Positions 1,429-21,527 of a DNA stretch of 22,414 nt are shown here, one piece after another. The notes under the pieces are model-generated. The model was not told where the DNA came from and made no database searches. It worked only from the letters and a program-made list of their open reading frames with translations. How positions within the stretch are numbered: the first letter of the stretch is position 1; each line of letters starts with the position of its first letter. This DNA comes from a virus. Made by a program: the position numbers and the translations under genes. The stretch lies in IMG/VR virus record IMGVR_UViG_3300017593_000856, positions 1-22,414 of that record. One strand, 5' to 3'.

Positions 1429-1556
1429 GAGCCGCCCCGTCCGTTGGTTTGCCCAGCAGGCCGCCCAGCTGGCCGCAGGAGGCGTTTTCTCGGCCCAGGT
1501 GGTAGATGGATACCATTTGGGTCAGAAAACGCCTTACAGGGCAAATATGGCGGTTT
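1429..1556 (+). ncRNA. Candidate structured RNA with a 23-bp hairpin
   Basis: The + strand folds into nested stems by hand pairing. The outer stem is 1429-1436 with 1549-1556 (8 bp, two G-U). A second stem is TTTGCCC (1448-1454) with GGGCAAA (1539-1545). A short GC hairpin pairs 1459-1462 with 1471-1474. The long arm pairs 1481-1490 with 1524-1533 perfectly, has a single bulged C at 1491, and continues with 1492-1504 against 1511-1523 (13 bp, three G-U), closed by a six-base loop (1505-1510). The G-U pairs would be A-C mismatches on the other strand, so the + transcript is the structured one. Frames through this stretch give Arg/Gly/Pro-rich peptides with no Shine-Dalgarno, so coding is unlikely. 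It lies just upstream of the first + strand gene. It could be a phage small RNA or a leader element. Confidence 0.5.
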
Positions 1557-6505: not shown

Positions 6506-7945
6506 ATGACCGAAGGTATTGATTCTCAAGCGACCAAGGTAGTAGTCAACGGGCAGGCATTGAAGGCGGCCGCGGGCTTGTTGGACTATGTGGTCCCACG
6601 TTCTACTCCGAAGCCCGTCTTGTCTTGTGTTTACTTGGAGGCTTTGCACAAAGAGGCGAAGCTGCGGCTGAGGGCGACTGATTTAGAGGTTACATTGGAG
6701 CTAACAATGCCGGTGGTTGTCCGCCAGGCCGGCGAGAAAGCACCAAAGGTTTTGCTGGTGCCGGCTCGCCGTTTGGTGGCTGCCTTGGGCCGGGCCGATG
6801 GGCCAATTGAGCTGGTTTTTAGAGGACCAGACAAACCGAAAGAGGTTGGGTTTTTGTCCATCGGGCCTGCGGAAGATGTCAGTGAAAGCAAGGCTCTTTT
6901 GAAGCTATCGAAGCCACGCAAGGGCAGCAAGGCCAAGGCAGGCGCGACATTGGAAAGTCTGGACCCCGGCGATTATCCTTCGCCCGTGCAGCTAAGTGAT
7001 GATGCCGCCGGCGGCGTTGTCCACACAGGCACGGCCTCTTTGCTGCGGGCTTTTGAGGTAGTCAAGGACTTTTGTGCCGATGTGGGCACAAGATATGCCT
7101 TGAACCGCATAGCCTTTTATCCCGGCGAGATAAGGCTGGTGGCCACCGAAGGGCATGTTATAGCAACATCGCGGATAGAAGAGGCCGTTGCTACTATGCC
7201 GGAGGACGAAGCAAAAGAGACAGTCAAACTGTTGGAAAAGCCTTATTTGGTGCCTCCTTCGGCTTTTAGTCTCTTGGCCCGGCTGGCCCCCAGGAAAGGC
7301 AAGGTCGTTTCAGCCTTTGGCGGGGACAGCTGTGAAGTGAGCTGTTTTCGCCCTGAGCTGGCGAACGGCAGGAAAAAGCTTCGGGGCGAAGAGGTGAAGG
7401 AAAACCAGGTGCCGGAGATGTCGCCCGCAGCCTGGGATTATGTGAGGTTTGAGACTTCCGGTGAGTTCGGGGAGGCCGTTCTTCTCGTGGGTTGTTCGCC
7501 GGTGGGCGGCTTCCCGGATTGGAAGCCTTTTATCCCCGATAAGCCGGAGAGTTTGGAGGCTTCGGCTTATCGGTGGGGGCTGGAAGTAGAGCCGACGAAA
7601 GAGGCGGTTGAACTAATAGTCAAGCAGATGAGGGCGGCGGAGGCTGATACGTTTTATGTGGATGTGTCCTTTTCGGATGGTGAGCTGTTCTTGAGCCGCG
7701 AGGTTAAAAGTTATCCCGGCGATTCCAAGGTTTGGGCCTCCATGCCGGCTGTGGAGATGAAGGGGGGGAAGGTGGCTTCGGGATTCAATGCTGCCTTTTT
7801 GCAGAGCATCTTCTCCGCCTTGGCCAAGGCGGGCCGGGAAAAGGTGGAGGTTTTGGGGCCGGAGGAGCCGGAGCGGAAGCCTTGGGTAATTGTTGCCGGG
7901 GCGGATATAATTTATGTGGTGATGCCGATGGAGAGGGTTGATTGA
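6506..7945 (+). CDS. dnaN: DnaN-like sliding clamp (DNA polymerase beta clamp)
   Basis: A 479-residue protein with three DnaN-type domains. N-terminal domain: RSTPKPVLSCVYLEA, then LRLRATDLEVTLEL, the family's conserved L-T-A-T-D-L-E region. Middle domain: NRIAFYPGEIRLVATEGHVI near residues 199-218, equivalent to the A-T-D-G-H-R segment. C-terminal domain: GFNAAFLQSIFSAL, then VIVAGADIIYVVMPM, ending like the usual V-M-P-x-R. Family members encircle DNA as dimers and hold the replicative polymerase. It is longer than the usual bacterial clamp (about 370), with extra Lys-rich and acidic stretches at about 135-150 and 285-330. A phage clamp would recruit a host or phage polymerase; none is visible in the window. 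ATG 6506 follows AGAAGGGAGATTGAA. Confidence 0.8.
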   Translation: MTEGIDSQATKVVVNGQALKAAAGLLDYVVPRSTPKPVLSCVYLEALHKEAKLRLRATDLEVTLELTMPVVVRQAGEKAPKVLLVPARRLVAALGRADGPIELVFRGPDKPKEVGFLSIGPAEDVSESKALLKLSKPRKGSKAKAGATLESLDPGDYPSPVQLSDDAAGGVVHTGTASLLRAFEVVKDFCADVGTRYALNRIAFYPGEIRLVATEGHVIATSRIEEAVATMPEDEAKETVKLLEKPYLVPPSAFSLLARLAPRKGKVVSAFGGDSCEVSCFRPELANGRKKLRGEEVKENQVPEMSPAAWDYVRFETSGEFGEAVLLVGCSPVGGFPDWKPFIPDKPESLEASAYRWGLEVEPTKEAVELIVKQMRAAEADTFYVDVSFSDGELFLSREVKSYPGDSKVWASMPAVEMKGGKVASGFNAAFLQSIFSALAKAGREKVEVLGPEEPERKPWVIVAGADIIYVVMPMERVD

Positions 7946-13168: not shown

Positions 13169-15115
13169 TTGATTGAACCAACGAAAGAGAAACGCATCGT
13201 TATCCCTTGGACACCCTTCCCGAACCAGGTCCGCGCGCACTTAGCCAAGGAAAAGCATATTTTATATGGTGGGGCGGTCGCTGGCGGGAAGATGCTAGAT
13301 TTGGCTACTCCTGTTCCTACTCCAACCGGGTGGACTACGATGGGGGACTTGAAGGATGGGGACCTCGTTTTGTCCGAGTTGGGCAAGCCTTGTCGTGTGT
13401 TGAAGGCCCATCCTGTTGAGCTTCGCCCCCGGAGTTTTCGATTGGAGTTTGATGACGGCTCGGTTTTGTTTGCCTGCGCCGACCATCAGTGGTGGACGTT
13501 TGATTACAGAGAGCGGAGGGCTTTGACCTGTTGCTGTGATGAAAAGAGAAGGAGAAAAACTAAAGCAAAGGCCGGACGTTATGGTTCGCCTCCCTTGCCG
13601 ACGGGGGCAATACGAACTACGGAAGAGATAGCTAGGACGTTGAAAACAGATAAAGGGCTGCCCAACCACGCCGTCCCCGTAGCCGCCCCTTTAGTCTTGG
13701 GGAAGAAGGAACCGTCCGGCGGCCCTTGCCCTTTAGGGGTTCGGCTGGGGGCCAATAATTCTTCGGGAACCGACGGGGTGTTTAGCTTTATCCGGTCCTG
13801 CGAAGAGGTTGAGCCTCGGCCCATGCGTTGCATCACCGTTGACAATCCGACCGGGCTGTTCTTGGTCGGCGAGTCCATGGTTCCAACTCATAACTCGGCC
13901 TGGCTGGTCAACGACGCCCTCCGCATGTGCTTGGCTTGGCACGGCAACCGTGTGGGAATCTTCCGCTACGAGCTGGCGGCATTCAAAAAGACCACTTACT
14001 TGACCCTCCGCGAATGGGTTTTGAGCATTCCCGGTCTAGTTGTAGCTCATAATCAGCAAGAAAACTATATTGACTTGGTAAATGGCAGTCGCATCGTTTA
14101 TGGCGGCCTTCGGCCCAGCTCGCCGTCGGCCGGCGACCCGTTTTCAGTGGTCAAGAGCTTGGAGCTGAACGCGGTTTATATCGATGAGGTTACAGATGTG
14201 CCGGAAAAGCTGTATCGATTCCTGGGCACCCGCGTCCCGCGAGTCAAGTGCCGTAACGCCGCCACCGGCAAGATGGAATATCCTCCGCCGAGAGTGGCGG
14301 CCACTTGCAACCCTTCTATGGGCTGGGTGAAAACGACCTTCGTGGACCAGCAGCTGCCGAATCATATCTTTATCCGTTCTAGCGTGAGGGACAATGCAGC
14401 TAATCTTCATCCTGAGTATGAAGAAGACCTGCGGGCCGAGCACAGTCACGACCCTGATTGGGTTAGGCGGTTCCTGGAGGGCGACTGGTCGGCTGCCGTG
14501 GACTATACTTGCATCTATATCGCCCCTTGGCTGGAAGCGGCCAGGAGGCGGCGGGTTCCGCCGGGCCGGCCCGTAGAGTTCGGCGTGGACATAGCCGCCG
14601 GAGGCTCCGACAAGACCGTTGTGGTTCGTAGGCGAGGTTTCCGGGGGGACGTGGTGCTGGCCGAACCGGGCGACCCGGACACCATGCTGACCACGGCCAA
14701 GATAGCCGCCCTGGCGGACAAGTTCAGGCCCAGCCTAATCAAGATAGACGCCGTGGGTATAGGCAAGGGCGTGTTTGACCAGTTGGCTCATCTTAGTTAT
14801 CCGGTTCAGGCTATGATTGGCGGTGAGCGGGCGGACGATGAAGGGTTCTTGAACAAGAGAGCACAATGGTATTGGGAGCTAAGGTCTTTGTTGGAGAGGG
14901 GCATGATACAACTGCCCGACTTGGACGAGCTTATCAACGAGCTGGGCGATATCCGCTATTCCGTAACGGCCAGCGATAGAACAATTCAGGTGGAAAGCAA
15001 GAAAGAGATTATCAAGCGCATGGGCCACAGTCCCGACTTTGCCGACGCCGTGGTGTACGCCTTTGCTGGCAGCAGTTCGGCCAGTGGCGTGGTTTCGGCC
15101 TTGGTGGGAGGATAG
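13169..15115 (+). CDS. terL: Terminase large subunit interrupted by a class 3 mini-intein
   Basis: The encoded 648 residues contain a 201-residue intein (42-242); the spliced product would be 447 residues. The ATPase P-loop reads YGGAVAGGK (33-41), then Ser243 after splicing. Walker B is AVYIDEV (Asp339-Glu340). The C-terminal RNase H-type nuclease shows FGVDIAAGG (Asp474), IKIDAVG (Asp527) and DFADAV (Asp623, Asp626). The ATPase pumps DNA into the prohead and the nuclease cuts the concatemer. The only practical start is TTG 13169; GGAGGAGGTG lies about 17 bases upstream, which is long. ATA at 13157 would sit at better distance but is a rare start. The next in-frame ATG is already inside the intein. 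Portal and MuF genes follow downstream, as expected for a packaging cassette. Confidence 0.9.
   Translation: MIEPTKEKRIVIPWTPFPNQVRAHLAKEKHILYGGAVAGGKMLDLATPVPTPTGWTTMGDLKDGDLVLSELGKPCRVLKAHPVELRPRSFRLEFDDGSVLFACADHQWWTFDYRERRALTCCCDEKRRRKTKAKAGRYGSPPLPTGAIRTTEEIARTLKTDKGLPNHAVPVAAPLVLGKKEPSGGPCPLGVRLGANNSSGTDGVFSFIRSCEEVEPRPMRCITVDNPTGLFLVGESMVPTHNSAWLVNDALRMCLAWHGNRVGIFRYELAAFKKTTYLTLREWVLSIPGLVVAHNQQENYIDLVNGSRIVYGGLRPSSPSAGDPFSVVKSLELNAVYIDEVTDVPEKLYRFLGTRVPRVKCRNAATGKMEYPPPRVAATCNPSMGWVKTTFVDQQLPNHIFIRSSVRDNAANLHPEYEEDLRAEHSHDPDWVRRFLEGDWSAAVDYTCIYIAPWLEAARRRRVPPGRPVEFGVDIAAGGSDKTVVVRRRGFRGDVVLAEPGDPDTMLTTAKIAALADKFRPSLIKIDAVGIGKGVFDQLAHLSYPVQAMIGGERADDEGFLNKRAQWYWELRSLLERGMIQLPDLDELINELGDIRYSVTASDRTIQVESKKEIIKRMGHSPDFADAVVYAFAGSSSASGVVSALVGG
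13292..13894 (+). other. TerL mini-intein, class 3 (W-C-T), Met at position 1
   Basis: The coding insert lies between Lys41 and Ser243 of the P-loop. Block A: MLDLATPVPTPTGWTTMGDL with Met in place of the usual Cys1. Block B: ADHQWWTF (Trp108/109). Block F: RCITVDNPTGLFLVG (Cys221). Block G: VPTHN (Thr240, His241, Asn242) followed by Ser. Class 3 inteins lack an N-terminal nucleophile and use Trp in block B, Cys in block F and Thr in block G; all three are present. At 201 residues it is too small for a full homing endonuclease. PCPLGVRLGANNSSG in the middle looks like a relic of the P-Y-L-L-G-x-W-L-G-D-G start of a LAGLIDADG-type insert. Activity is inferred. Confidence 0.85.
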
Positions 15116-15541: not shown

Positions 15542-17068
15542 ATGGCCGAGCGCAAGGGCGACGAGGCTGCAATCGCTCCGGTCGTCTCAGGGGGAGCTGT
15601 TTCAACTATACCGTTGGGCGAGCTGAAAGAGCTGTTGCTGGGCGAGAACTCACCGATAGCCGAACAAACCGATTATCTCTTCGCCAAGGCCAGCCGTGCG
15701 GCTGCCGTGGCCGTTCAGGACTTGTTCGCCTACGGCGAACGTGTGCGAGTGCCGGCGAATACAGAAGAATGGGTCAAGCTTTACACCGACCATGTATGGG
15801 CCTATGCCGGAATCTTCGCCATAGCCGCCACCATCGCCCCTTTGGAGCCGAAGCTGTATGAGATAAACGTGGAGACTGGCGAGAAGAAGGAGAAGACGGG
15901 CCATCCCGCCGTCCGCCTGCTTCGCCGGCCCAATGATTCCATGACAGGGCTTGAGCTGTTGGAGGCCCTTGTTATTTATCTCGAAACCTGCGGCATGGCC
16001 TATTTGGAGGTGGTGTACGAAGAACGCGAGAAGAAGCTGGGCGAGGCCGTGGTGGATGAACAAGTCCAGCCCTCCGAGCTATGGCTTATTCGCCCCGACC
16101 GCCTGACGCCCGAACCGCGTAAGGACGGTCGTGGAGTAGAGAGGTATGTTTTCCAGACCAAGAAAGGAGCCAAGAAAGAGTACTTCAGCCCGGACGAAAT
16201 CGTTCCCTTCCGTTATTTCCATCCCTTGAACGATTGGTTCGGGTTGGGCAGTGTCCAGCCAGCCATTGACGATGTGCGTCAAGACAAGCAAATGGCCCAA
16301 TGGAATCTGGACTTCTTTGAGCACGGCATTACACCGGAGGGAATACTTCAGACAGACAAGCCCATCACGCCTTACGAAATGCGCTCTTTGGGTAAGCAGA
16401 TAAAGTCTTTTCTGTCCGGCAAGGGCCGGCAGGTGCTTATCCTGGGCAAAAACCTCAAGTGGCAGACCATTTCACTCAATCCCAAGGACGTGGAGTTCTT
16501 GGAGGGCAGGCGGGAGAACCGCCAGGCTATCTTGGCCGCTCTGGGCGTGCCGCCCGTGATGGTGGGGCTGTTAGAACACGCCAAGTATGATAACTACGCC
16601 CTCCAGATAGAAGCCTTCCACCGCGATACCATCGTGCCGAAAGTGAGGCGGATAGAGGCGTGCCTGGAAAACTTCTATCTGCCCAAGTGGTCTGACTTGC
16701 AGCCCACCGGTGAGGTGGAGTATCGCATTGAGTTTGACAAGAGCGCCTTGGTCCAAGAGAATGAGGACCGTTTGACCGATAGACTAATCAGGCAGATAGA
16801 GCACGGTATTGTTACACCTAACGACGCTCGTAGGAGATTGGGCTTGGATGACTACGAAGGCGGCGACCAGTACTATATGAAGAATACGTTGGTGCCAATA
16901 GAGAGCATAGAGACTGAAAAAGCTTGGGATATGGAAGAAAGGGAGGATGAGCTTGTCCGCCAGGTCCAGGCCCTTCAGCAAGCCGTGGACGAAAGACTGA
17001 ACAAACTGGAGCGTGAGGTGGCCGAAGCTAAAGAAGCCGAAGTAGAGGAGACAGACAGCATTGGATGA
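15542..17068 (+). CDS. Portal protein, HK97 family
   Basis: A 508-residue protein with HK97-type portal features in order. These include PLEPKLYEI and HPAVRLLRRPNDSMTGLELL (about 120-142), YLETCGMAYLEVVY (about 146-160), and LWLIRPDRLTPEPRKDGRG (the family's L-x-P-D-R-V segment). Then come FSPDEIVPFRYFHPLNDWFG, GLGSVQPAIDDVRQDKQMAQ, and the N-R-x-x-I-x-A-x-x-G-V-P-P segment (ENRQAILAALGVPPVMVG). The C-terminus is a long coiled coil (about 450-508). Twelve copies form the DNA entry ring at one capsid vertex and dock the terminase. ATG 15542 has a strong AGGAGG. It overlaps the next gene by 8 bases. Confidence 0.9.
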   Translation: MAERKGDEAAIAPVVSGGAVSTIPLGELKELLLGENSPIAEQTDYLFAKASRAAAVAVQDLFAYGERVRVPANTEEWVKLYTDHVWAYAGIFAIAATIAPLEPKLYEINVETGEKKEKTGHPAVRLLRRPNDSMTGLELLEALVIYLETCGMAYLEVVYEEREKKLGEAVVDEQVQPSELWLIRPDRLTPEPRKDGRGVERYVFQTKKGAKKEYFSPDEIVPFRYFHPLNDWFGLGSVQPAIDDVRQDKQMAQWNLDFFEHGITPEGILQTDKPITPYEMRSLGKQIKSFLSGKGRQVLILGKNLKWQTISLNPKDVEFLEGRRENRQAILAALGVPPVMVGLLEHAKYDNYALQIEAFHRDTIVPKVRRIEACLENFYLPKWSDLQPTGEVEYRIEFDKSALVQENEDRLTDRLIRQIEHGIVTPNDARRRLGLDDYEGGDQYYMKNTLVPIESIETEKAWDMEEREDELVRQVQALQQAVDERLNKLEREVAEAKEAEVEETDSIG

Positions 17069-18745: not shown

Positions 18746-20185
18746 ATGTCATCGTTTTTCATGGACATAAGCAAAGCCCTGAGTGGAAGAACCCGAACAC
18801 ATCGCCGACTGTTGGAGATATACAATCGCAACGTTCGGCGATTCTATCGGGCTGTCCGCGCTTGGCTGAAGCTGATGGACGAGGCCGTGATGTATGGTGT
18901 AGTTCATCAGCTTATTTTAGGCATGGAGCCGGATTTGTCCTTGATGGAAAATCTCCGGCCTTGGCTGCCGGAATATTCTGATTTGGGGCCGGACGTGCTG
19001 CGAAAATCTCAAGAGCTAAACAAGATACAGCTGGACCCCGATACTATCACCGCCCGTTTGGTGGATTGGAATTGCCTGACTAATAAAGGCACTCAGGTTT
19101 TTGGCCGACAGCAAATGAGCATCTATGCTCAGAGCATGGACCGGGCGATTCAGTTGGCCAAGTGGAAGACCTCTTGGGAAGTGATAAATCGTTATGCAGT
19201 GGAATGGGCCAGACAGAACGCGGCGCAAAGAGTTACCCGCATTGTCGAGAGCACGCGGGAAGCCTTGCGCGACGTTATAGCTCGCGGGATTGAGCGCGGC
19301 CAGAGCATGGAGACCATAGGGCGATACATTCGCGGACTGGCCGGGCCTGACGGCGAACCTTTGGTGGGGCTGAATAGGCCACAGATAAAGGCATTGGAGA
19401 GGGTGGAAGAGAGGTGGACTGAGCGTTATGCCTCCATGCGAGGGGGCCTGACCCCGGCCCGCAGAGCCCGCCTCCAGCGCGAGCTTATGCGCCAGCGGCG
19501 GAAGATGCGGCGGTATCGGGCGGAGATGATAGCTCGAACGGAGACGGCTACCGCAGTTTCGGCCGGGACTCTGGCGGGGTACAGAGAGGCCAAGTTGACC
19601 CGCGTGCAGTTTGAGTCCAGCGCGGACGCCTGTATTGTTTGCCTGGGCTATGATGGGCACGTTTGGAATATAGCAGAGGCGGATGGGATAATTCCTGTTC
19701 ACGTTAATTGTCTGACATATTTCGGAACTCCTGTCTATACGGCGGACGGTTGGAAAGGGATAGGCAAGATTGGAATAGGAGAGTTGGTTTTAACTCATAA
19801 AGGCAGATTCCGCCGAGTGGTCCAGGTACACCGAACGCCGCGACAGAGACCGGAGGTTGTTACCTTGTCTTTGGGCGTGAGGAGTATGAAGAGAAAGAAG
19901 CTTCAATTGACGGCGGACCACCCCGTGTTGGTAAACGGGCAGTGGCGAAGGGCGAGGGAGGTTGAAGCTGGGGATAAGGTGAAGTTCCTGGTAGAAGAAA
20001 AAGAGATTAGGTTTGACCTTCTTCCGATATCCTCTGTTTCTGTTTCTAAGCCCTCCCGCCCGATAACGCTTTACAATCTGTCTGTGGAAGAAGATGAAAG
20101 CTATGTGGCCAAGGGCTTCGTGGTTCATAACTGCCGTTGCACTTGGAGACCCGTGAGAGAAGAAATAGTCAAACCCGGAGAATAA
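18746..20185 (+). CDS. MuF/SPP1 gp7-type head morphogenesis protein with mini-intein
   Basis: Encoded as 479 residues, of which 322-462 are an intein; the spliced product would be about 338 residues. The long helical N-terminal part contains many Arg residues. The conserved MuF end begins MIARTETATAVSAGTLAGYR (about 260-280). It continues with ESSADACIVCLGYDGHVW and, after splicing, PVHVNCRCTWRPV, the family's C-x2-C and H-x-N-C-R-C pattern. Family members are minor capsid proteins needed for head assembly and early DNA ejection. ATG 18746 has no clear Shine-Dalgarno; a TAAACT box ends 9 bases earlier, so a nearly leaderless start is possible. ATG 18761 is an alternative. It is followed by the XkdF-like protease, as in PBSX-type cassettes. 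Confidence 0.85.
   Translation: MSSFFMDISKALSGRTRTHRRLLEIYNRNVRRFYRAVRAWLKLMDEAVMYGVVHQLILGMEPDLSLMENLRPWLPEYSDLGPDVLRKSQELNKIQLDPDTITARLVDWNCLTNKGTQVFGRQQMSIYAQSMDRAIQLAKWKTSWEVINRYAVEWARQNAAQRVTRIVESTREALRDVIARGIERGQSMETIGRYIRGLAGPDGEPLVGLNRPQIKALERVEERWTERYASMRGGLTPARRARLQRELMRQRRKMRRYRAEMIARTETATAVSAGTLAGYREAKLTRVQFESSADACIVCLGYDGHVWNIAEADGIIPVHVNCLTYFGTPVYTADGWKGIGKIGIGELVLTHKGRFRRVVQVHRTPRQRPEVVTLSLGVRSMKRKKLQLTADHPVLVNGQWRRAREVEAGDKVKFLVEEKEIRFDLLPISSVSVSKPSRPITLYNLSVEEDESYVAKGFVVHNCRCTWRPVREEIVKPGE
19709..20131 (+). other. MuF mini-intein (141 aa), class 1 (Cys1...His-Asn/Cys)
   Basis: The insert begins at Cys322 (CLTYFGTPVYTADGWKGIGK) and ends VVHN at Asn462, followed by Cys463. Block B is LTADHPVLV (Thr389 to His392). 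Block F is LYNLSVEEDESYVAKGFVVH. All residues expected for class 1 splicing are present: Cys1, block B T-x-x-H, penultimate His, final Asn and Cys+1. At 141 residues there is no room for a homing endonuclease, so this is a minimal splicing domain. It splits HVN from CRCTW, in the Cys/His motif of the host protein. Confidence 0.9.
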
Positions 20186-20204: not shown

Positions 20205-21527
20205 ATGAGACTAGAGGACGTTAGCGTTGGCAACGTAGCGTCGCTCAGTAGTAGTGAGTTGAAAGACCTCCGCCACCGGGCCGAGCAGCTATGGAGGGCC
20301 GCAAGCAATTGGCGGGACAGTCTGGCCGCCGGCAAGGTCGGCGTGGTGAAGTCCATCGGGCGGCGCGAGCTGTTGGAGACATATCAAGTCATTTCCGCCG
20401 AGTTGGCCAAACGCGGCGAGGAATGGCCCCTCGGCGAGCTGGACCGCAAGCTGGCCCGAAAGAGGCTAAGGGGCGTGGACGTAGAGGAATTGCCTTCCAT
20501 CGTCATCCGCCCGGCCGCCGTGTCTTTGGCCGGGGCCTATGTGGCTGGCCCACGTTCGGCCCGAACGGTGGACGTCCGCGTGGACAGCGACCAGTTCGGT
20601 GATGAGATATCCTTCGAGATTGAGAAGCGGGTGGCCGAGTTGGTGGCCGCCGAGACCGGCCTGCCGGCAGTGGTCCGCCGAGATGCCGAAGGGATGGAGC
20701 CGCCGGTATTGCCTTTGTACGATTTGGTGCTGCTACCGAGGAAAAAGACAGCTGACTTATCGGACGAAGAAGTGGCGGAGCTGGCCAAGAGACTGGGCCA
20801 AAGGGACGACAGCTTGTCCGATGACGCCCAAGAGCCTAAAGAAGATGAAGCCCACGAAGAACCCGAAGAAGAGGAAACCAGCCTTCCTCCCGTTACTTTC
20901 GTCAGCAAGCCTTATCCCCGCGAACATGCGGCGAGACAGCTCGACCCGAAGCAGTTCGACGATTTCCGCCGTGAGAACAACAAGTTCGGCCAAGGCATTC
21001 ATGCTATCTGGGGCATAAAGAACGGCAAGGCCAAGCTCCAAAGCATCCGCTTCGACGCCAACAAGTTCACTCCGGCCAAGGCCCGGGCTTGGCTGAAGGA
21101 ACATGGCTATAAAACCAGTTTGGAAGAGGCCACCAAGCCCAAGAAGGCCGCGACTTCGTTTATCAAGAGCGAAGAGGAGCGCATTGTGGCCGGTCCGGTG
21201 TATGGGCTGGGCAGTCCGCGAAAGGTGGACGGCCAGGGTGATTTCGTGGACGATATAAAAGAGCTATGGAAGGCGTTGAAGGACTGGCGAATCCGCTCCA
21301 AAGGCAGGATGAAGATAATGCACCAGGGCAGCCCCGTGGACCTTGTGGTGATAGAGTGCTTTTTAGCTGAAACTGACACACTCAAGAGCGGCCACAAGGT
21401 CCGCAAAGGCGATTGGTATCTGTCGGTGTACGTCCCTGAGAAGTACGAAGAGCTTTGGCAGGCCATAAAGGACGGCGAGATTACGGGCTTTAGTTTAGCT
21501 GGCACGGCTTCGGCGGAGTTGGTCTAG
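20205..21527 (+). CDS. XkdF-like putative prohead protease with N-terminal extension (440 aa)
   Basis: The C-terminal ~150 residues match the XkdF phage serine protease family. They include EERIVAGPVYGLGSPRKVDG, GDFVDDIKELWKAL, KIMHQGSPVDLVVIECFLAE (His373), VRKGDWYLSVYVPEKYEELW and the closing IKDGEITGFSLAGTAS (Ser430). His373 and Ser430 are the best catalytic candidates. Residues about 245-320 (LDPKQFDDFRRENNKFGQGI, then ARAWLKEHGYKTS) are a separate domain. The N-terminal 100 residues are helical, and an acidic Glu-rich linker lies at about 205-230. Prohead proteases cleave scaffold and capsid precursors; a capsid gene would be expected further right. ATG 20205 follows GGGAAGGTGAAGC. Confidence 0.8.
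   Translation: MRLEDVSVGNVASLSSSELKDLRHRAEQLWRAASNWRDSLAAGKVGVVKSIGRRELLETYQVISAELAKRGEEWPLGELDRKLARKRLRGVDVEELPSIVIRPAAVSLAGAYVAGPRSARTVDVRVDSDQFGDEISFEIEKRVAELVAAETGLPAVVRRDAEGMEPPVLPLYDLVLLPRKKTADLSDEEVAELAKRLGQRDDSLSDDAQEPKEDEAHEEPEEEETSLPPVTFVSKPYPREHAARQLDPKQFDDFRRENNKFGQGIHAIWGIKNGKAKLQSIRFDANKFTPAKARAWLKEHGYKTSLEEATKPKKAATSFIKSEEERIVAGPVYGLGSPRKVDGQGDFVDDIKELWKALKDWRIRSKGRMKIMHQGSPVDLVVIECFLAETDTLKSGHKVRKGDWYLSVYVPEKYEELWQAIKDGEITGFSLAGTASAELV

Follow-up and report, generated by a model that had tools for sequence, protein, structure and literature searches.

A class 3 mini-intein in the Walker A motif of a phage terminase large subunit

Introduction

What interrupts the ATP-binding loop of the terminase large subunit (TerL) gene in IMG/VR virus record IMGVR_UViG_3300017593_000856, and can a working terminase be made from it? 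The DNA analyzed here (positions 1 to 22,414 of that record, hereafter the window) encodes a TerL precursor with 201 additional amino acids (aa) in frame inside its Walker A motif. A first-pass annotation had described the insert as a class 3 intein beginning with Met, and had proposed that DNA packaging is gated by its splicing. Published class 3 inteins are marked by the absence of a nucleophile at residue 1 and by Trp at block B position 12 (B:12), Cys at F:4, and Thr at G:5 (the WCT residues). We consider it very probable (roughly 0.93) that the insert is a class 3 mini-intein able to splice, placed between Lys and Ser of the Walker A motif in a phage TerL.

Results

The terminase P-loop is interrupted by a class 3 intein

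Within the Walker A loop (GGAVAGGK|S), the insert is preceded by Lys41 and followed by Ser243, and the reading frame runs from a TTG start at position 13169 to a stop at position 15115 without interruption through both exteins (648 aa). Removal of the 201 aa in silico left a 447-residue terminase, the length given in the first-pass annotation, in which the motif is exactly restored as a single Walker A match, GAVAGGKS, accompanied by a Walker B-like VYIDE and a C-motif-like CNP. At the equivalent place, intein-free terminases have an uninterrupted loop, namely, YGGSAGGGKT in Acidovorax phage AP1 and YGGAAGGGKS in Flavobacterium phage 11b. The identity of the host protein as TerL is given by these Walker motifs, by a match to PHROG family phrog_2 (terminase large subunit; E value, 1.1e-30), and by the adjoining portal gene 3' of it at positions 15542 to 17068 (PF04860; E value, 7.9e-67); its nuclease metal site was assessed by sequence alone. 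A Pfam search of the precursor gave no matches at an E value of 0.01, presumably owing to its divergence and its interruption. A tblastn search with the C-extein against 84,980 bacterial and archaeal species (one genome each) gave no relatives.

All four class 3 marks are found in the insert, with Met1 as the nonnucleophilic first residue, Trp67, Cys180, and Thr199, the last being followed by His200 and Asn201. In precursor numbering, these are Trp108, Cys221, and Thr240-His241-Asn242, exactly the residues named in the first-pass annotation. The best phmmer matches in the PDB were class 3 DnaB inteins (6rix, E value of 3.7e-25; 6riy, 1.8e-24; and 6bs8, 4.1e-21). The alignment with 6rix was gap free over intein residues 2 to 71 and resumed at residues 167 to 201, and Trp67 aligned with Trp67 of the DnaB inteins. 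By tblastn, 228 phage records matched; judged from these sequence matches, the resemblance far exceeds chance. Structure prediction with an alignment of 24 relatives (mean predicted local distance difference test [pLDDT] score, 85.3; predicted template modeling [pTM] score, 0.79) pointed the same way. The fold search with this model placed 6rix, 6riy, and 6bs8 first (E values, 3.7e-13 to 1.3e-10; TM-scores up to 0.91, normalized by target), followed by class 1 inteins and a hedgehog Hint domain, so that the predicted Hint fold is nearest to those of solved class 3 inteins.

His65, Trp67, Cys180, Thr199, His200, and Asn201 did not vary among the 55 distinct full-length sequences, of which this intein is one, and Trp67 was kept in all 157 N-terminal blocks that retained His65. 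Relatives were selected for Cys in block F and for an HN-Ser/Cys/Thr terminus, which by itself accounts for part of the invariance seen at Cys180 and at the final residues; no such requirement was placed on His65, Trp67, or Thr199. The alignment of Trp108, Cys221, and Thr240 with the class 3 blocks thus holds both for the DnaB inteins and for the 55 full-length sequences, and sequence, predicted fold, and invariant WCT residues agree in supporting a class 3 intein between Lys41 and Ser243, as first proposed. The +1 residue was Ser or Thr in all listed relatives, and the insertion site was GK|S/T in 51 of 55. We therefore rejected the idea that the P-loop position is unusual, as GK|S/T is where class 3 inteins in the sample usually lie; the intein is a new example at a well-known site, class 3 inteins at Lys|Ser/Thr P-loops and terminase inteins there being common or published.

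Residue 1, which the first-pass annotation had singled out, proved less remarkable. Across the full-length set of 55 (this intein counted), residue 1 was Ala in 43 and Met in 3, and Met1 occurred in 7 of 157 N-terminal blocks (this intein counted; 41 rows were unaligned at residue 1). Met1 is uncommon, not exceptional, and accords with class 3 chemistry, which by definition does not employ residue 1. That Met1 might be a new variant was rejected, as it recurs in relatives L010 and L034 and in others. The features of the locus are listed in Table 1.

TABLE 1 Terminase precursor gene, its exteins, and the intein blocks (window coordinates)
Feature	Position	Strand	Length or residues	Description
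TerL precursor	13169..15115	+	648 aa	phrog_2 match; portal gene downstream
N-extein	13169..13291	+	41 aa	C-terminal ...ILYGGAVAGGK is the first part of Walker A
Class 3 mini-intein	13292..13894	+	201 aa	Met1 to Asn201; precursor residues 42-242
Block A	13292..13330	+	residues 1-13	MLDLATPVPTPTG; residue 1 nonnucleophilic; alignment based
Block B	13457..13498	+	residues 56-69	GSVLFACADHQWWT; Cys62 (B:7), His65 (B:10), Trp67 (B:12)
Homing-endonuclease remnant	13679..13774	+		Degenerate first LAGLIDADG region, then deletion scar; from L010 alignment and low pLDDT
Block F	13820..13867	+	residues 177-192	Cys180 (F:4), predicted branch-point nucleophile
Block G (SMVPTHN)	13874..13894	+		Thr199 (G:5), His200, Asn201
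C-extein	13895..15115	+	406 aa	First residue, Ser+1, doubles as the Walker A serine

Predicted splicing route

By homology with characterized class 3 inteins, splicing would begin with attack of Cys180 (Cys221 of the precursor) on the Lys41-Met1 peptide bond to give a branched thioester, after which the N-extein would be transferred to Ser+1 (Ser243), cyclization of Asn201 (Asn242) would release the intein, and an acyl shift would restore GGAVAGGKS in the 447-residue terminase. The insert is best read as a once-mobile element that has lost nearly all of its LAGLIDADG endonuclease by deletion, so that it would be inherited along with the gene and kept because the terminase gene depends on its splicing.

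Several points weigh against this reading. Splicing is predicted here from the gene sequence; B:7 is Cys where Asp is usual and position 48 is Ser, and in the Mycobacterium smegmatis DnaB intein each Cys48 replacement tried, Ser included, abolished splicing. The intein linker is long, with a CCC run and a degenerate stub. No closely related, nonidentical sequence was found by which purifying selection on the splicing residues might be gauged. The window in its entirety matches, at 100% identity, part of a 73,277-base viral contig that carries an identical intein copy; this contig is the same phage and hence no independent evidence.

The change of Cys48 to Ser and the unusual B:7 residue, together with one decayed class 3 intein pseudogene on record, could be taken to suggest a decayed intein, incapable of splicing, in a dead gene or a defective phage. 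We regard this as very unlikely, given that every catalytic residue is present (in the published pseudogene, the B:10 His and the F:4 Cys were both gone), that the frame is open through both exteins, and that other phages sharing the combination of Cys62 with a non-Cys residue at position 48 also keep the WCT residues. A different chemistry, in which Ser+1 attacks directly in a class 2-like manner or Cys62 of block B serves as the first nucleophile, might be entertained because Cys62 stands in for a residue that the DnaB intein structure places near residue 1; it is highly improbable, as Cys180 is invariant together with Trp67 and Thr199 in all full-length relatives, those with Asp62 included, and KlbA had been the sole reported case of class 2. 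Splicing by the class 3 route is the reading that we retain.

Splicing and packaging

The claim that packaging is gated by splicing stands only in a trivial sense. By the reasoning used for the DnaB P-loop and TerL1-a inteins, the precursor is probably without a working P-loop and hence without ATPase activity. Disruption of an ATP site by an intein has been argued in print for phage terminases and for the Mycobacterium DnaB and Pyrococcus RadA P-loop inteins; in PMC5050341, the TerL1-a intein of mycobacteriophages is described as splitting the Walker A motif between Lys and Thr, and its splicing is called crucial for active-site formation.

As a statement about regulation, the claim drew no support from any of the evidence gathered here. 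Slow or condition-dependent splicing (responding to redox state, metal, or temperature) that times DNA packaging would fit with the P-loop placement and a probably inactive precursor, with the redox sensing reported for a related class 3 intein in a P-loop, and with the eight cysteines in the intein, among them Cys62 at a position near residue 1 in the DnaB intein. Such a conditional switch is nevertheless unlikely, because the published terminase inteins tested in Escherichia coli all spliced readily, with quick splicing and a predominant ligated product, and because Ser takes the place of the known redox partner, Cys48. Redox gating of the DnaB type, in which Cys48 is the disulfide partner of the catalytic Cys, was rejected on the latter ground.

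Cys48 and Cys62 are mutually exclusive in the class 3 inteins sampled

Ser48 of the intein is encoded at window positions 13433 to 13435, and Cys62 (B:7, commonly Asp) is encoded at positions 13475 to 13477. Among 116 clusters (80% identity), 85 had only Cys48, 16 had only Cys62, 15 had neither, and none had both (Fisher P = 1.7e-11, a statistic that ignores relatedness). That the two cysteines never occur together suggests compensation between the sites, which we take from the sequence pattern as a lead only. On the best tree of the N-terminal blocks, Cys62 needs 7 to 9 changes, and the starred branches force just 1; these numbers do not establish independent origins of Cys62, and the tree, built from blocks too short for resolution, is compatible with a single origin. 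Class 3 inteins may exist in two forms, one with Cys48 and usually Asp at B:7 and the other with Cys62 and without Cys48, in which Cys62 would replace Cys48 in folding or activity or as a redox latch; we hold this to be a rather doubtful proposition at present.

Loss of the endonuclease and history of the intein

In an alignment with the 356-aa intein L010 (viral contig IMGVR_UViG_3300021579_000289), residues 1 to 159 matched residues 1 to 159 (45% identity) and residues 164 to 201 matched residues 319 to 356 (68% identity), and about 159 homing-endonuclease residues are absent as one block relative to L010. Of the two LAGLIDADG motifs of such an endonuclease, there is only a degenerate first one (LGVRLGANN versus LGVWLGDGN in L010), the remainder being deleted in comparison with L010 and with L004 (viral contig IMGVR_UViG_3300035698_004632), and the predicted model has pLDDT values below 50 at residues 145 to 160. 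As 82.5% of 1701 class 3 inteins retain the endonuclease in a published count, this intein belongs to the mini-intein minority; four further inteins of 143 to 181 aa occur in the relatives sampled.

The nearest terminase found was that of L004 (41% identity over 431 residues), whose same-site intein is 41% identical in the splicing domain, whereas the nearest intein found was that of L010 (60% identical in the splicing domain), whose terminase was barely alignable (E value, 0.12). Intein and terminase therefore appear to have had separate histories, as would be expected of a formerly mobile element. The L010 intein shares Met1, Cys62, a non-Cys residue at position 48, and a Gly-rich GGK P-loop with the intein described here and differs in its full LAGLIDADG endonuclease and in Thr at +1; the L004 intein shares the insertion site and Cys62 and differs in that its endonuclease is retained (374 aa) and residue 1 is Leu. 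Searches seeded with both inteins added few close relatives. Like the boundaries, class, and site of the intein, the endonuclease loss and the discordance with terminase descent follow from these sequence comparisons. L004 also encodes, at L004:621-2666, an RtcB-like protein with an apparent intein, judged by translation (...NAVGCFTGDTK...FVHN|CDIGCGMR...).

A second intein and other features of the window

A 141-aa class 1 mini-intein (Cys1 ... VVHN|C) lies at positions 19709 to 20131 (+), within the open reading frame (ORF) at positions 18746 to 20185. Its host is a Mu F/SPP1 gp7-like head morphogenesis protein, in which the HxNCRC motif is split (HVN|CRCTW); an intein in a Mu-like F protein has a precedent in a Methylococcus capsulatus prophage (PMC517821). 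3' of this head protein gene, a 440-aa ORF at positions 20205 to 21527 (+) has a C-terminal XkdF-type putative phage serine protease domain (PF14550). The 479-aa protein encoded at positions 6506 to 7945 (+) resembles the N-terminal domain of DNA polymerase III beta (sliding clamp) and also matches the phage processivity-factor family phrog_947 (E value, 2.9e-20). A 96-base stretch at window positions 1460 to 1555 has a second copy (91% identity) elsewhere on the same 73-kb contig (G001:C1:60307-60402).

Discussion

A close published parallel in host and position is provided by the TerL1-a inteins of mycobacteriophages and a Kocuria prophage (PMC5050341), which likewise interrupt TerL between the invariant Walker A Lys and the next nucleophile and differ in belonging to another terminase lineage and in having Thr at +1, where Ser is found here. 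In that source, class 3 is stated for TerL1-c, -d, and -e. The M. smegmatis and Mycobacterium chimaera DnaB inteins (6bs8, 6rix, and 6riy; PMC6195587 and PMC7664689) are also class 3 mini-inteins without an endonuclease, with aligned WCT residues, and that of M. smegmatis shares the P-loop site, its +1 Ser doubling as the Mg-coordinating P-loop Ser; unlike the terminase intein, they reside in a helicase and have a shorter linker. M. smegmatis DnaBi1 has Ala at residue 1, Asp at B:7, and Cys at position 48, where the terminase intein has Met, Cys, and Ser, respectively.

The intein is a well-preserved example from an undescribed phage. With its visible deletion scar and its endonuclease-bearing relatives, it shows the intein life cycle at the stage where the endonuclease is lost, and it also illustrates the movement of inteins between unrelated terminases at one site. 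The exclusivity of the two cysteines bears on the question of why Cys48, called nonconserved in the M. smegmatis DnaB intein, is essential there. If Cys62 does act as a latch by the N-terminal splice site, terminase maturation in such phages would be redox sensitive through a different disulfide.
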